Virus record (IMG/VR): IMGVR_UViG_3300031576_000013
Span: 1 to 64,000 of that record
Source: a virus
Direction: 5' to 3' (one strand)
DNA: 64,000 nucleotides
Of the stretch, positions 12,335 to 50,533 are shown piece by piece. The first letter of the stretch is position 1, and each line of letters opens with the position of its first letter. The notes beneath the pieces are model-generated. The model was not told where the DNA came from. It made no database searches and saw only the letters and a list, made by a program, of their open reading frames with translations. A program made the translations under genes and the position numbers.

Positions 12335-12982
12335 GTGCCAAGACCATTAATTTTTCCGGCAATCGGTAGTACTTTCGGACGTTTAACTGTGCTTAGACCC
12401 ATAAAAGGCCCTAAGCGTACAATGGTCGAGTGTAGATGCATGTGCGGCACAGTTAAAACGTATCAGTTGCACGATATTTGTAATGGACATTCAACTTCAT
12501 GTGGTTGCTACTCCCGAGAGCTAATAAAGGTGAGAAGCCGGAACCCAAACTGGTTGCGGAATGCTCGACAAGCAATTACTAAACACGGACATGCGCGTCG
12601 TGCCACGCAAAGTCCCGAATATAAGTCATGGTGTTCGATGCTTGCACGTTGCAATAACCGTAACAATCCAAAATTCTCGACTTATGGCGGAAGAGGTATA
12701 AAGGTAAGTCCTGGATGGGTTGACTCATTCGCCATATTTCTTAGTGATATGGGGCTGAAGCCAACCACTAAACATTCGCTTGGGCGGATTGACAATAACA
12801 GGGGCTATGAACCCGATAATTGCCGATGGGAAACCCCACAACAACAGGCTACAAATAAAACTAACACTATTCGGATACCTTTTAGGGATAGTGTTCTTTG
12901 TCTAAAAGAGGTTGCTGAAATAACGGGCATAAACTATTATACTCTCTGGACGCGGTACAAGAAAGCAACGAATTTTGCATAA
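12335..12982 (+). CDS. HNH-type homing endonuclease
   Basis: 215 residues, GTG start 11 bases after the preceding stop. An N-terminal zinc-ribbon-like part (CRCMCGT...CGCY) leads to YKSWCSMLARCNN, YGGRGIKVSPGW and DNRGYEPDNCRWETPQQQ, the signature of a large family of free-standing phage endonucleases. A short helix-turn-helix-like end (LKEVAEITGINYYTLWTRY) should give site recognition. The DNA is clearly richer in A and T than its neighbours, as expected of a mobile gene. It stands at the convergent end of the rightward block. Confidence 0.8.
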   Translation: MPRPLIFPAIGSTFGRLTVLRPIKGPKRTMVECRCMCGTVKTYQLHDICNGHSTSCGCYSRELIKVRSRNPNWLRNARQAITKHGHARRATQSPEYKSWCSMLARCNNRNNPKFSTYGGRGIKVSPGWVDSFAIFLSDMGLKPTTKHSLGRIDNNRGYEPDNCRWETPQQQATNKTNTIRIPFRDSVLCLKEVAEITGINYYTLWTRYKKATNFA

Positions 12983-13842: not shown

Positions 13843-14127
13843 CTACTTGGACTTCGTGGCCACGAGCGTGCGGACGCGCGTTCCGAAGTCTACGAACGCG
13901 TCGGCCGAGCAGTAATGATGGAAAGTTGGACGCCCGCCGTCAGGTCGCGCCCACACCCAAATATCGAACGGATTCGTGCCCTCCGGACATACTTGCGCTG
14001 GCGCAACGAAGGCGCGCATCAGTTTTCCATTGAAGGGAAACCAGATCGCCCAACCGCTACGCCGTTCGTACTTGAACGCTTTGTTCTTGGTGCATACGGC
14101 GTCCGTAGGAGGTCGATGCGAACTCAT
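13843..14127 (-). CDS. small unknown protein coupled to SspB-like gene
   Basis: 94 residues. The ATG at 14127 overlaps the stop of the SspB-like gene (ATGA) and has AAAGGCGGCG upstream, so it is preferred to longer starts. The protein has an aromatic-rich core (YERRSGWAIWFPFNGKLMRAF) and a few Cys/His (HHYC). Coupling suggests a shared role with the adaptor. Confidence 0.6.
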   Translation of the reverse strand: MSSHRPPTDAVCTKNKAFKYERRSGWAIWFPFNGKLMRAFVAPAQVCPEGTNPFDIWVWARPDGGRPTFHHYCSADAFVDFGTRVRTLVATKSK

Positions 14128-14576
14128 TCGACGCCGCCTTTCAAGACCCTGAAGGACGCCTTCAGCTTGGCGCGTTCTTGAATCTTCGCTTCTTGCGCCA
14201 TGCCTTTCGCGATCTCTTCGCGCACTTCCGTGGGTACGTCTTCGTCCCATACGATTCCTTCGCCCGCACGCCCTGCGATATTGAGCGTCGCGATCCCGAA
14301 TACTGTTTGCCATGGCACGCGCACATAGCAGGCCGTGCCCTGGAAGATCAACGTGGCTTCGACGAGCTCGTCGTCGTATTTGAGATCCGTAGTCGGTATC
14401 GGCAGTTCCGACCCGAATGCGAGCGCCACGGAGGCTCGCCCTTTGTACGCTGGCGGGACTTCGACGTTCGCGGGCCGTGGGTCGAGGTGCACGAGAACTT
14501 TTCCATCTCGCAGCATCGCCGCGAAGACCTCAGGCTTGGCCTTGGTATAGGTGGCGCTCGTCATACCTGGGCTCAT
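14124..14576 (-). CDS. sspB: SspB-like ClpXP adaptor
   Basis: 150 residues from the ATG at 14576; a GTG 81 bases upstream is in frame but would overlap the previous gene. VLVHLDPRPANVEVPPAYKG (about 26-45), PIPTTDLKYDDEL and ATLIFQGTACYVRVPWQTVF follow the SspB pattern: a cradle-shaped domain that binds ssrA-type tags and hands substrates to ClpXP. From memory the wording resembles deltaproteobacterial SspB. The tail (AKLKASFRVLKGG) is basic, with a hydrophobic patch where SspB proteins carry their ClpX-binding motif. A phage copy could redirect host proteolysis. Confidence 0.7.
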   Translation of the reverse strand: MSPGMTSATYTKAKPEVFAAMLRDGKVLVHLDPRPANVEVPPAYKGRASVALAFGSELPIPTTDLKYDDELVEATLIFQGTACYVRVPWQTVFGIATLNIAGRAGEGIVWDEDVPTEVREEIAKGMAQEAKIQERAKLKASFRVLKGGVE

Positions 14577-14582
14577 TCGTAT

Positions 14583-14611
14583 AGCATACCGCAATACGCC
14601 AGCGTCGTCAA
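14583..14611 (-). promoter_or_regulatory. promoter for the SspB-like gene, leaderless
   Basis: On the minus strand TTGACG (14606-14611) and TATGCT (14583-14588) are 17 bases apart, and the ATG at 14576 follows the -10 box by 6 bases. The spacing equals that of the promoter at 8191-8220, and no Shine-Dalgarno sequence precedes the ATG. Confidence 0.5.
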
Positions 14612-14616
14612 GCTCA

Positions 14617-14970
14617 TCACTCGGCTTCGCTTTCGATCCCGAGCGCCGCTTCGGCACGCAACCTTCTAGGTAGATCCACCTGTGTGATGGCGATGGCCCT
14701 GAGCGCCGTCAACACTTCGGTTCTCTCGCCGATCACCGTCGTTGGATTCGTGACAAAGGCAAAGACCGCATCCCACGTTCGTTTGGGTAGGCGGTCGCTC
14801 CAGATTTCCAAGTCGCGCGCAAGCGGTGTGGGATCGCCGATCGCGATTCCACGAAGACTGAGTGGTTCGACCAAGGATCGCGGCGTCCCCACATAAAGCG
14901 TCTCGTCCAGCACCGTGTTTTGTAGAACCAGCGCGGCTTCGAACTCCAGCTTCGTTTGGAATAGCGACAT
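14617..14970 (-). CDS. unknown protein next to dTMP kinase
   Basis: 117 residues with GAGAGGACGCG before the ATG. Mixed alpha/beta, acidic C-terminus. It lies 9 bases after the dTMP kinase gene and shortly before the SspB-like gene, whose promoter is located at its 3' end. No family is recognised. Confidence 0.65.
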   Translation of the reverse strand: MSLFQTKLEFEAALVLQNTVLDETLYVGTPRSLVEPLSLRGIAIGDPTPLARDLEIWSDRLPKRTWDAVFAFVTNPTTVIGERTEVLTALRAIAITQVDLPRRLRAEAALGIESEAE

Positions 14971-14979
14971 CGCGTCCTC

Positions 14980-15594
14980 TCATGGCAAAAATTCGACAAT
15001 GTTTGTCATTATAGCCTCGGTGACCTCGTCTTTCGCCCAACTACCCTCTACGGTGCACCAACGCGCGTCCCACAGTCCCAGCGTATGTGCGTTCTGCCAA
15101 GCGCGTTTGTAGTAGTCGCTTACCTTCTTCTGAAACGCTTGGTCGCTCTCGTAGACGTCGTCTTTTTGCGCGTTACGTTCGGCTAGTCGTCCTCCACGCG
15201 TTACAGGATCCGTCGAAATCAAGACTTGTAGATCGGCGCGGGGCAAGCAGCCGGCCATTTTGTACAACCAATCGATCGGCAAACCGTCCGCGCTTCCGTA
15301 CACGATCGAACTCATCACCCAGCGGCCGATCAGTATGATCGCTCCGCGCTCGTTCCAGTTCGTGATCTCATCGGCTGCTTCGAGCCGATCCGCGAGCAAC
15401 ATACACTGCAAGGCCAGGCGATCGTTCGGCAGGCAGTCTTTCAGCTTCTCCATGGCTGCGTTTCCGATCATCGTTCCCGTCCGAGGGAACTCGACCGCAC
15501 GAACCGAACAACCCAGCGACGTCAAACGCTCGCTCAAAAGCGCGATTTGCGTCGACTTACCCGCGCCGTCCGCGCCTTCGATCGCGACGATCAC
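14980..15594 (-). CDS. tmk: dTMP kinase
   Basis: 204 residues, GTG start. EGADGAGKST (6-15) is the P-loop of thymidylate kinases. EFPRTGT (about 35-41) stands at the substrate-binding DR-loop region, and ILIGRWVMSSIVYG (about 92-105) matches the DRYxxSxxAYQ motif with Gly-Arg in place of Asp-Arg. RGGRLAERNAQKDDVYE is the lid region. It phosphorylates dTMP to dTDP for phage DNA synthesis. Its start overlaps the stop of the RHH gene by 4 bases. The length fits the family. Confidence 0.9.
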   Translation of the reverse strand: MIVAIEGADGAGKSTQIALLSERLTSLGCSVRAVEFPRTGTMIGNAAMEKLKDCLPNDRLALQCMLLADRLEAADEITNWNERGAIILIGRWVMSSIVYGSADGLPIDWLYKMAGCLPRADLQVLISTDPVTRGGRLAERNAQKDDVYESDQAFQKKVSDYYKRAWQNAHTLGLWDARWCTVEGSWAKDEVTEAIMTNIVEFLP

Positions 15595-45988: not shown

Positions 45989-48900
45989 TCAAGTAACAAA
46001 TGGCGCGGCCAAAATCGAGTAGACCGGATCCGCCTCCTTGATCGCGGTTCCACCTATCGACCATCCGGTAAATTCCCCCCGTTTTACGGCTTCCCACAGC
46101 TCGTCGTCGACGATTCGTGCCGCAAGCAACCAAGTACCTTTTTTTACTGGCTGCTCTGCAACCGTGAAGTCTAGCGGTGCGAGATACGATTCGAGGATCT
46201 TTACGCGACCATCAATCAATTTTCGGTGCATCAAACCGATATGGCCGTAGCGCTCCATGAACCCATGCGCTGCTTTGCGAATCTCGTCGGAGGAATAAAC
46301 GTCGTTCTGCGCGTCGACGGTCTCGGGTTCGAGAACGATTCCCAAGACGTAACGCTCCTCCTTCGCGGTTTCTTCGGCCTTGAACAGCTTGACCGCGTGT
46401 GTCCAGGGGCGAAGCTCCAGTTTTGAAACCGGCGTCGACGAGGATGTCGCTTCTTTCTCGACGATCTTTTCGTAGTCGCGTCGAAGCGCGTCGCAGATTC
46501 GATGGGCGGCTTCTTCGTCGTGGCCTCGCGTCTTTTGATCGGCTACGCAAGCCTCGAAATTAGCGAAGCCGGCGAAGGGTTTTTCGATCTCGACAGAAAC
46601 CTTCGCTTGCAATTGACATCCGAGATCCCAGAGCGGGGGAGGCGGTTCGGAAGCGCGCTTCTTGATTTCGTCGGGGTTGAGCATCGCGACGACTTCGTTG
46701 ACCGTCATCGGTGCCTCGTCGGTGACATCGATCACCGTTGGGGTGAATCCCGTGATCTTCCACTTGCCGGCTGTCATGCGGTTGAAGAGCACCTCCGTCA
46801 CTTCGATGCGTAGAACATCGCCCGATTCGGCCTTCACCTTGCTGTTGAAGGATTTGCCCGCCGGAGCATATTTTTTCCCGGCGAGCTCGATCAAGTTGGG
46901 CCAGTTGCCTTGTTCCTTCTCGGGAATTGGTCCGAAGGCGTAGAAATAGTTGAAGACGCCCGGCGAATCCTTGACCGGGTGCTTGTCGTAGACGATTCCG
47001 CGCACCTCGCGAATCAGCTTGATCTTCGCCCAACCGTCGCTTTCGCCTCCAAGAGAGTAGGTCGCATTCGCGGATTTGAGCATCGCGCCTTCGGAGCCTG
47101 GCGAGGCGGCTGCCTTCGCGATCAACGAGTCCAGGCTCTCATGCGTTCTCGCTGTGCCCAGCGCCGGTACGAGTTTGATGCGGCTGCTTTGACGCTTGTT
47201 GAGGAACGCTTCCAGCAAACGGCGGCGTTCGGCTTGATCTTTTTGCGTGATGTTTCCCTCGTCGGGCAAATACAGCGCGTCGAAAATTTGTAGTTGGACG
47301 TTTGCGTCGTCGACTACTCCGGTCCCTCGGAACCTGGCCAAGTCCCTGCGGGGCGTGGCGGCGCCGTCGACGAACTCCATGAATTCTGCATCGAGCACGA
47401 ATGGCCCAGGGAGTTTTGCCAGCTCGGCCGTGACGCCGGGCCAGTTCTTCATGTAGTTGCGCTGCTCGGTTTTCCGCGAAAAGAACTCTTCGGTGATAAT
47501 GAAAACGCGGTCGCCATCTTTCTGAAGGGCGACGCGAAAACCGTTCAGTTTCGGTTCGACGAGGATTCCGCTGTCGAGCAACGCGCCGGTTGCGAAGTCT
47601 TCGTGCAGCCGATCGAGCTCACCACCACGAAACTCGTTCGTCTTTCGGGCTGCGACCTTCATAGGCTTGAAGACCGCGAGCGGCTTCAGCTCCTTCCGAT
47701 CCCCACCTTTGTCGTCGGCGTCCTTGATCTTTCGCGGATCCCAAATCTGGACGTCCTCGATCACCGTCCCGTCTTGTAGAGAGACGTCGCGCACCTCGTG
47801 CGCCTTTGTGATCTTCTCACCGGGGACAGCGCGTGAAGGTTGTTTTCCGCGCTCCCATTGCCACAAATCACCGGCTTCCTCTTCGGCAACCAGCACAAAT
47901 ACCCCGTCATCGGAGACATCCGCTAGATCGCCTCCGCGTACACGGATCTTCTTGAACTGGCGTTGGTCATCTAGAAATTCGATCTTGCCCCTTGACAGAA
48001 TTCGCATCTGCGACGGCGTATTCTTCGAGGGATTGAATTCAACGCCGTGGACCTTTTCGCCGGGCGGCGCATCCCCTTCATAGGCAAGCAGCTTGTCGGC
48101 CTCCACGTTCGTGAGCGCACGGCGAATCACTGCGATCTTGTCGTTCTCGAAGGGGTCGCCTTCGAGTTGAAAATCCTCGATCTCATTCTCGCCGCGCTTG
48201 ATGAACAGGTGAAACACCTGCGAGGAAGGCGCGGCACGGATCACGACCTGGCCCTTGAACCGTTGCCACGTCAGCGTGTAGGGCGCTGCCTTCAATTGCT
48301 TGAGCAGTCGCGTAGCGTTTTCCGTAGCTATGGTTGCCGCGATCCGGTCCATAGCTTCTTCCACGGTCCGCGCCTCGACGATCTCCGGCGCGATGTCGGC
48401 TGAAGGCCAAAACTTCTTGGTCTTCAAGGTCAGTCGGAAATCGCGGTTGATCTGTACGGTCTCAGCCGTCACGAGATGAGCTTCGATCAATGCGTTGCGG
48501 GTCGCTTCGACCTCTGATGGCTTATCCTTTTCCCAGTAACGAAATTCAGGCGGAATCGCGTTCTTGATTCCGAGCGGAAGCGCGGATCGGCCCTTCGGAG
48601 GGAGTGTCTTCGTTGCAATCGCGCGGCGCCGCAGAACGCTGGGCGTCAGATCCTTGTTGAACATCGCAACCCAGAAAGCTTCGCCCTCCCGGGTGCGCCG
48701 GCCCGTCTCGACTTCTTCTTCGGACGCGTCCCCTCGGCCCACGAGTAATCTAAAAGTCAGCAGCCCATGAAATTTTTGATCGCCTTCGACGGCGTACTCG
48801 GCAAAGAACGGCTTGAGAATCAGGTGTGTGACTTGCGGGCGTGCGATTCGAACGATCACGCCTTCCTCCTCGGCGGTTGCGCCCACTTCGCCCGCCTCGA

Positions 48901-50533
48901 ACTTGCGCCCTTCGATTTCGAGCCAAATCGGCGGCTGTAGGGACTTCACGGCGGCGAACACGCGATTCGGCGCGTTCATTGGTTTATTCCAGTACGAGCC
49001 CTCCATGTTGAAGGTGACTGCGAGTCGTTTGCCTTCAGGTACGGTGTCTACATCAGGCACTTTTCCTGCGCGCTGGATCGCAAGCGTGAAACCCGTGAGG
49101 AAATCCTCGCCGGTCTTGACACGGAAATCTCCGTGAACCGACCGACCTCTGAAATGACTCTGGAATACGGCCGCGCGGGGTTCTTCCTTTTCGGGATAGA
49201 TCAGGATTGGGTTCTGCTGCTTCTCGGCGTCTTCGTCGCGCATATCGACGACGCGTTTTTCGGCGACGGGATGGACGACGAGATCGTAGAGATCTACGTA
49301 GCTCGTGTATGGACCGCAGCCACCGGTATCTGGATCGGAGTCGTCATGGAATTGAACTCGCTGCGAAATCTCCGGCGGTAGCATCCGACCGAGCCTGAAC
49401 TTCAAAACTTGCAGTGTCTTCTCATCAAGTGGTCCGTCGATGAGCACGTCGACGTCGTTCTTCGTTTCGCCGTTGTTCACGATCGAACCGACTAATCGAA
49501 CGACCGGTGCGCGAATCAGGAAGGGCTTCTCGAAGTGTTTGAGAACTTCTTCGAGTTTGAGTGGCGGGTATTCGCCCGTCGATCCCGGATGGATCGGAGC
49601 ATATCGATCGGTCTTGCCCGCCTTCGAAATATCATCGGTTTCTTTGGTACGTGCCACGCCTGAAGGTCCAATCACGAGGGGCTTCCTGCGGCGAAGCCGA
49701 CGCAGTTCGGCTTCGATTCCGAGTGGGTCTTCCACCTTGTCGACCAGCGCGCGAGCTTCGCGCGTCAGCTCGTCGTCAAAGGGGTGTTTCAAATCGCGCC
49801 GTGTGAATTCTTCGATCATGAACGCTTCAGCGTTCACCAGATCTTCGCGGCCAACGCCTTCCGCCGACAGCTTGTCGTTACCAGCGAAAAGGCTTGCGAA
49901 CGCGGCGTGCAATTCCCTGTCGAGCCGCTTGAGTTTTGCGTCATCGAAAGCCTTCAGGTTGCGAGGCGTGATCTCCGTCAGGTCGAACGTTGCGTGTTGA
50001 CCCGGAACCGTGTCCAGATCTGCCGTGGTCAGATCGCCCTCACCTTTTGCGACCGCCTCTTCTTCGAGATCGATCTCGGGGCCGTATCGCCGCCCGGGCG
50101 GTGTCTTCTTCAGCTCGATCGGAGGATCGAAAGCCCGAACCAGCTCCATCGGGATGTAGAACACCGGCTTGACCGGTTCGAACTCGGCCAGCGAGAACTT
50201 GTCGATCCCCTCACGCAGCTCCTTCGGGACGTCGTCGAGCGACGCGAACTCCTGCGGCTCTCGTAGAACCACGATCGCCCAGGCGAAGGTCGCCTTGGCC
50301 TCTGTCGGCTCGATCTCGTTTAGCAAGATCTGCGCTTCTCCGCTGCGTCCCTCTTGCTTGCGTCGAGACAGGACGCCTGCGCTCTTGTCCTCTTGAAGCC
50401 GTGCGACGAGCATTGGCGGGTCCGGCATCTTCAATACCGGCAGTGGGCCTGCCGGCATTTCGAACTTGCGCTGCTCTTCTGGGTTCCCCGGCAAGGGAAC
50501 GACCGCCTCAACGTGGGCGTTCGGGGTCGACAT
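45989..50533 (-). CDS. NTase - phosphoesterase-like - DNA ligase - prohead protease fusion
   Basis: 1514 residues, CGGAG upstream. In order: a helical N-terminus; a pol-beta-type nucleotidyltransferase (GS at 349-350, acid pair DVD at 360-362, third acid at 414); a LigD-phosphoesterase-like part (SHFRGRSVHGDFRV, 459-472, and KRLAV, 502-506); a degenerate second copy (about 750-830); an ATP-dependent ligase core with catalytic Lys994 (KLNGFR), LDAEF 1047-1051, EGAMLK 1148-1153 and WAKIKL 1168-1173, and an OB-fold to about 1270; last an Xkdf-type prohead protease (HIGLMHR, His1431; GWSIGG, Ser1492). The protease fits its place between portal and scaffold. The rest is exceptional and may be packaged with DNA. 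Confidence 0.8.
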   Translation of the reverse strand: MSTPNAHVEAVVPLPGNPEEQRKFEMPAGPLPVLKMPDPPMLVARLQEDKSAGVLSRRKQEGRSGEAQILLNEIEPTEAKATFAWAIVVLREPQEFASLDDVPKELREGIDKFSLAEFEPVKPVFYIPMELVRAFDPPIELKKTPPGRRYGPEIDLEEEAVAKGEGDLTTADLDTVPGQHATFDLTEITPRNLKAFDDAKLKRLDRELHAAFASLFAGNDKLSAEGVGREDLVNAEAFMIEEFTRRDLKHPFDDELTREARALVDKVEDPLGIEAELRRLRRRKPLVIGPSGVARTKETDDISKAGKTDRYAPIHPGSTGEYPPLKLEEVLKHFEKPFLIRAPVVRLVGSIVNNGETKNDVDVLIDGPLDEKTLQVLKFRLGRMLPPEISQRVQFHDDSDPDTGGCGPYTSYVDLYDLVVHPVAEKRVVDMRDEDAEKQQNPILIYPEKEEPRAAVFQSHFRGRSVHGDFRVKTGEDFLTGFTLAIQRAGKVPDVDTVPEGKRLAVTFNMEGSYWNKPMNAPNRVFAAVKSLQPPIWLEIEGRKFEAGEVGATAEEEGVIVRIARPQVTHLILKPFFAEYAVEGDQKFHGLLTFRLLVGRGDASEEEVETGRRTREGEAFWVAMFNKDLTPSVLRRRAIATKTLPPKGRSALPLGIKNAIPPEFRYWEKDKPSEVEATRNALIEAHLVTAETVQINRDFRLTLKTKKFWPSADIAPEIVEARTVEEAMDRIAATIATENATRLLKQLKAAPYTLTWQRFKGQVVIRAAPSSQVFHLFIKRGENEIEDFQLEGDPFENDKIAVIRRALTNVEADKLLAYEGDAPPGEKVHGVEFNPSKNTPSQMRILSRGKIEFLDDQRQFKKIRVRGGDLADVSDDGVFVLVAEEEAGDLWQWERGKQPSRAVPGEKITKAHEVRDVSLQDGTVIEDVQIWDPRKIKDADDKGGDRKELKPLAVFKPMKVAARKTNEFRGGELDRLHEDFATGALLDSGILVEPKLNGFRVALQKDGDRVFIITEEFFSRKTEQRNYMKNWPGVTAELAKLPGPFVLDAEFMEFVDGAATPRRDLARFRGTGVVDDANVQLQIFDALYLPDEGNITQKDQAERRRLLEAFLNKRQSSRIKLVPALGTARTHESLDSLIAKAAASPGSEGAMLKSANATYSLGGESDGWAKIKLIREVRGIVYDKHPVKDSPGVFNYFYAFGPIPEKEQGNWPNLIELAGKKYAPAGKSFNSKVKAESGDVLRIEVTEVLFNRMTAGKWKITGFTPTVIDVTDEAPMTVNEVVAMLNPDEIKKRASEPPPPLWDLGCQLQAKVSVEIEKPFAGFANFEACVADQKTRGHDEEAAHRICDALRRDYEKIVEKEATSSSTPVSKLELRPWTHAVKLFKAEETAKEERYVLGIVLEPETVDAQNDVYSSDEIRKAAHGFMERYGHIGLMHRKLIDGRVKILESYLAPLDFTVAEQPVKKGTWLLAARIVDDELWEAVKRGEFTGWSIGGTAIKEADPVYSILAAPFVT
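50471..50492 (+). repeat. dispersed repeat copy 14 (partial, in coding sequence)
   Basis: CTGCTCTTCTGGGTTCCCC; the right half differs. It is read in frame as PGNPEEQ near residue 15 of the 1514-residue fusion. Confidence 0.7.

Follow-up and report, generated by a model that had tools for sequence, protein, structure and literature searches.

A diverged SspB-type protein encoded by a contractile-tailed phage with likely Myxococcota hosts

An open reading frame (ORF) on the minus strand of a phage genome, at positions 14124–14657, encodes a diverged SspB-type protein, an identification that is settled as far as computation on its sequence and predicted fold can settle it. In bacteria, SspB assists the ClpXP protease by delivering marked proteins to it. 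On balance, we favor the reading that the phage protein is a diverged SspB tethering adaptor of a Myxococcota phage, which would bias host ClpXP with an altered choice of substrates.

The window analyzed here is the first 64 kb of the linear IMG/VR record IMGVR_UViG_3300031576_000013, which is 94.8 kb in total. Structural genes in the window encode a portal, a major head protein, a head protease, a tail sheath, a tape measure and a baseplate, and the remainder of the record encodes a family A DNA polymerase and helicases. Together, the head, tail and baseplate genes and the polymerase and helicases indicate a contractile-tailed phage. The first recognizable gene upstream of sspB in the same gene run is that for thymidylate kinase. 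The sspB region comprises:

14124–14657, minus strand: SspB-type adaptor ORF in its longest form, 177 aa from GTG; 98.3 bits to the Myxococcota SspB profile
14250–14555, minus strand: SspB cradle domain, a substrate-peptide-binding fold, residues 35–136, from the AlphaFold model and PDB matches
14154–14231, minus strand: tether, residues 143–168, predicted as a single charged helix
14127–14153, minus strand: putative ClpX-docking (XB) motif FRVLK followed by GGVE, C-terminal, from alignment to cellular SspBs
14583–14611, minus strand: promoter-like TTGACG-17-TATGCT, inside the GTG-started frame and 6 nt before ATG 14576
13843–14127, minus strand: 94-aa ORF, start codon overlapping the sspB stop (ATGA)
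14617–14970, minus strand: 117-aa ORF upstream of sspB, with no family found and a 41-base overlap with the GTG-started form
14980–15594, minus strand: thymidylate kinase gene (tmk), Pfam PF02223 E = 2.5e-23; phrog_761

A first-pass annotation had proposed a phage-encoded SspB-type protein from the pattern HLDPR, VEVPPAYKG and VPW. All three motifs are present in the minus-strand ORF ending at 14124, and the identification is borne out by profile comparison, predicted fold and XB tail; the description of the gene was incomplete in that it missed the C-terminal XB-like FRVLK and the possible GTG start. The Pfam family PF04386 scores the window protein at 15.2 bits, below its gathering cut-off of 27, which is a detection threshold rather than a property of the protein. 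NCBIfam gave weak matches to ClpXP specificity-enhancing factors, and searches of PHROGs and PDB sequences with the single protein returned nothing significant. Because Pfam alone left the matter undecided, Myxococcota SspBs were collected for comparison, using as bait a myxobacterial-like SspB sequence, which had no other use. A cellular profile of 36 Myxococcota SspBs, from which the phage protein was left out, gives the window protein 98.3 bits (E = 2.5e-29); in the controls, the best of 1000 shuffled copies reached 4.7 bits and the best other phage ORF 5.2 bits. The window protein itself has a match in 141 of 195 Myxococcota genomes, one in each (tblastn, best E = 4.8e-17), mostly in a group of 3.5–6 Mb genomes and at 34–41% identity. 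The A4 profile, in which the window protein is included, recovers the PDB entries for SspB (8et3, E = 2.8e-12).

Structure prediction, which had been suggested as a check, agrees. The AlphaFold model, based on a 37-row alignment, has a mean pLDDT of 81, with the cradle blocks mostly at 85–96 and residues 81–90 at 72. The 19 best Foldseek matches of the model in the PDB are all SspB (prob 1.00) and include SspB–ssrA structures (1ou8, 1ox9) and the ClpXP delivery complex 8et3. In the viral structure library BFVD, the model matched phage SspBs, the best match being a phage protein named stringent starvation protein B.

Three candidate starts were considered: GTG 14657 (177 aa), ATG 14576 (150 aa) and ATG 14564 (146 aa). 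The ribosome-binding energy is best for the GTG (−4.2), followed by ATG 14576 (−3.1) and ATG 14564 (−1.9), with a phage median of −5.0. Cellular homologues start near ATG 14564, and the 27–31 extra N-terminal residues of the longer forms have low confidence in the AlphaFold model. It had also been claimed that the gene has its own leaderless promoter. The box and its spacing are literally there, with TTGACG at 14611–14606, a 17-nt spacer, TATGCT at 14588–14583 and ATG 14576 six bases on, but such boxes occur at chance frequency (3 sites in 6.6 kb vs 2.1 ± 1.4 in shuffles). The 64-kb window holds 25 of them, four with an ATG 4–8 nt downstream (that of sspB and three others). Given the chance-level box and an upstream GTG with a better ribosome-binding site, leaderless transcription is unproven. 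A 15-codon mini-ORF (14617–14573) begins within the stop codon of the preceding gene (TGATGA) and terminates in the ATGA at 14576, an arrangement that could allow coupled translation of the ATG form without a leaderless transcript. Probably, sspB is translated as part of the phage gene run that lies downstream of tmk and not from a dedicated leaderless promoter.

In the predicted structure, the cradle (residues 35–136) is followed by a helix at residues 143–172 that runs into FRVLK-GGVE. In alignments, FRVLK falls opposite the HLRLVK/R that ends Myxococcota SspBs and opposite LRVVK of E. coli; it has F where L is usual and is followed by four residues. Residues beyond the XB are also present in the cellular homologues L046, L071 and L073 and in a phiKZ-like phage SspB homologue, whose tail is VIKGGKK. 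The XB peptide docks on the zinc-binding domain of ClpX (PMC12373786; PMC7226468). The tether of the window protein is short (~26 residues), charged and predicted as one helix, and thus differs from the cradle-to-XB linker usual for SspB, which is long and flexible but not strictly defining. Tethers of Myxococcota SspBs are longer and rich in Pro and acidic residues. Measured from the VP of VPW to the XB, the distance is 54 residues in the window protein and 38 in the SspB of a related phage described below; the median for 42 Myxococcota SspBs is 82 (52–165), only one of them being shorter than the window protein, and misplacement of the VP anchor in two of the 42 leaves this ranking unaffected. 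Values elsewhere are 75 for E. coli, 43 for Pseudomonas phage pf16 and 56 for Erwinia phage RAY. A short tether as a trait of all phage SspBs was ruled out by a phiKZ-like protein of 302 aa with a much longer tether.

The cradle also departs from the cellular pattern. In the strand LNxSxR, the N, S and R are found in 88–93% of Myxococcota proteins, whereas the window protein has A80, G82 and E84 and the related phage protein has Q, G and N. The E84 change was considered as proof of lost tag binding and dropped, since H. influenzae SspB differs there too; presumably, the equivalent residue is not strictly required as R for ssrA binding. As a separate observation, many Myxococcota SspBs in alignment A4 carry an internal XB-like motif in mid-linker (RPxxLREV or RPxLxAV, e.g., L017:3001-3516), possibly a second ClpX contact; it is absent from both phage copies.

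Several lines of evidence bear on the host. (i) The tail sheath has full-length matches at 39–44% identity in many Myxococcota chromosomes, and 82 of 193 Myxococcota genomes have sheath matches at E <= 1e-10, frequently more than one each. (ii) The three provirus loci that were read (L107, L108 and L109) contain structural homologues in collinear order, and in two of them the capsid matches at 47–49%; from their sequences, these loci are taken to be proviruses or phage-derived elements of the same kind as the window phage. (iii) The SspB is of the Myxococcota type. The host search covered the Myxococcota phylum alone. The provirus module and the SspB type together point to Myxococcota as the likely host phylum, which upholds and sharpens an earlier hint drawn from a likeness to deltaproteobacterial SspB. 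In the checked genomes where positions could be compared, the single SspB match lies far from the provirus.

The tmRNA tag of host-type genomes is ANDNVELALAA, or ANDNVEYAVAA in one Myxococcota genome, G172. In the latter, ssrA and sspB are divergent neighbors 169 bp apart (L060; C2:97637-98785), which ties the Myxococcota-type SspB to the tmRNA pathway and trans-translation. No tmRNA gene was found in the phage.

Direct protein searches of INPHARED phages, PLSDB and IMG/VR with the window SspB returned no relatives. A second phage copy was reached through the tail sheath search only, and when used as a query it recovered only itself. It belongs to a related phage, IMGVR_UViG_3300010413_000018 (140.7 kb; G196), whose head and tail module is largely collinear with that of the window at roughly 23–49% identity. 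The related protein has 121 aa, ends in KLRLVK (an intact XB), scores 34.5 bits against PF04386 (above the cut-off of 27) and is 36% identical to the window protein. Its gene occupies another genome position among other neighbors, so the two copies do not establish common descent within the lineage; the one-clade test for them gave p-AU 0.23. The branch of the window protein in the tree is very long, at 4.05 changes per site, and that of the second copy is similarly long. A third relative, an 89.9-kb record, is without sspB. In the related phage, about a dozen small ORFs (~65–90 aa) with CPxC...CxLCxG and AYxL motifs flank sspB (L093:6281-13625), and one of these ORFs lies directly after sspB, overlapping it by ATGA, and has a weak likeness to the DnaJ zinc domain.

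In the reading that we favor, the XB tail would dock on the zinc-binding domain of host ClpX, the cradle would hold a chosen protein by its degron, and that protein would be passed on to host ClpXP. The cradle probably would not have the exact host specificity for the ANDNVELALAA tag, and the phage may thus bias ClpXP towards its own substrate set or, at high dose, away from the substrates of host adaptors. Altered cradle specificity is suggested by changes in both phage copies at strand positions common to nearly all host SspBs; it is a guess, because the E84 equivalent is presumably not strictly required as R, given that H. influenzae SspB differs there. Since the cradle is kept yet altered at conserved positions, redirection is favored and competition comes next, and the sequence alone cannot choose between redirecting, competing and supplementing. 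The function proposed in the first-pass annotation, redirecting ClpXP or protecting phage proteins, is plausible. A stronger form of the proposal, which we regard as speculative, is that the adaptor, its cradle rewired and its tether short and rigid, reprograms host ClpXP during infection, so that specific host proteins are degraded and host adaptors are shut out. If so, the targets might be, for example, host defense or repressor proteins, and two phages of one Myxococcota phage lineage would have retained the adaptor, though not at the same place in their genomes.

A tentative alternative to redirection is that the phage SspB fills ClpX docking sites and delivers poorly, its short helical tether being the cause, with net protection of phage or host proteins. 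Excess SspB or XB peptide blocks RssB-driven degradation through the same ClpX site (PMC7226468), both phage proteins have short VP-to-XB distances (54 and 38 vs a Myxococcota median of 82 and 75 in E. coli), and the authors of the pf16 study, who saw that the acidic linker was lost, proposed competition (PMC5587285). However, a pure decoy would not need the retained cradle, the long tether of the phiKZ-like protein means that shortening is no general phage trait, and no assay of any phage SspB was found in the literature. It is improbable that the protein simply does the job of the host SspB, clearing ssrA-tagged fragments when infection overloads the ribosomes: its architecture and fold are as in host SspB, host sspB adjoins ssrA in G172 and the phage lacks its own tmRNA, but identity to the host proteins is only ~26–41%, conserved strand positions are changed, and a long related record and related proviruses are without sspB. 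That it is a captured host gene drifting without function, as the very long branch might suggest, is highly improbable, because the frame is open, the cradle and XB motif are intact, sspB is kept in a second phage on a similarly long branch and a downstream gene is coupled to it.

That downstream coupling, already noted in the first-pass annotation, is real at the level of ORFs: the ATG of the 94-aa ORF (13843–14127) overlaps the sspB stop by four bases (ATGA). For its protein, no phage relatives were found and only two marginal matches appeared among 193 Myxococcota genomes. Family searches (Pfam, PHROGs) with the longer frame that holds the ORF gave none, and the related phage IMGVR_UViG_3300010413_000018 showed no counterpart. 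Beyond the four-base overlap, nothing speaks for or against the first-pass idea that the 94-aa protein is a partner or substrate of SspB, which is a guess. The single-sequence fold has a pLDDT of 45, too low for a structure search, and PADLOC made no assignment for the three genes.

Compared with Myxococcota SspBs, the window protein shares the cradle fold, HLDxR, VxVP, VPW, DxPxE and a C-terminal XB. It differs from them in its identity of ~26–41%, a short helical tether, a PT insertion before DLKY, a longer loop after VFGI, the F in the XB and the four residues beyond it; it differs from many of the myxobacterial proteins in having no internal RPxLREV-like motif. With E. coli and H. influenzae SspB (PF04386; 1ou8, 1ox9, 8et3) it shares the fold and XB-like tail, both predicted here, but it is ~23% identical to the E. 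coli protein and below the Pfam cut-off, and its ssrA binding is putative. Among phages, an SspB was reported in Pseudomonas phage pf16 in 2017 (PMC5587285); the pf16 protein, gp18, likewise has a shortened linker and an XB tail, but it is of the gammaproteobacterial type and near the Pseudomonas protein (PMC5587285), whereas the window SspB is of the Myxococcota type. Erwinia phage RAY gp039 and phiKZ-like homologues are also phage-borne SspB-like proteins that retain an XB-like tail (PMC10299810), and SspB has been localized during RAY infection (PMC10299810). Those are jumbo nucleus-forming phages unrelated to the window lineage, and the phiKZ-like protein examined has 302 aa. In the phage collection, E. 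coli SspB has matches in 79 records, a few of them resembling bacterial sequence. Phage SspBs as such have already been reported; the present one is new in its phage lineage, its Myxococcota type and its short, predicted helical tether. Annotated phage SspBs come from several lineages, but we found no report testing their effect on ClpXP. The Myxococcota-type lineage adds a readable host tag, ANDNVELALAA, and marked differences in tether and strand residues, so that one small protein could separate adaptor redirection, competition and supplementation.

Further features are recorded here in their own right. An HNH endonuclease gene lies at window positions 12335–12982 on the plus strand, and a second ORF, at L002:11983-12504 on the minus strand, is similar to it by eye. 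A 1514-aa ORF at 45989–50533 on the minus strand combines an ATP-dependent DNA ligase domain (aa 988–1172) with an XkdF-type prohead protease (aa 1388–1499), whereas the protease ORF of the related phage has only ~490 aa. The longer ORF could encode a polyprotein from which a ligase is released.
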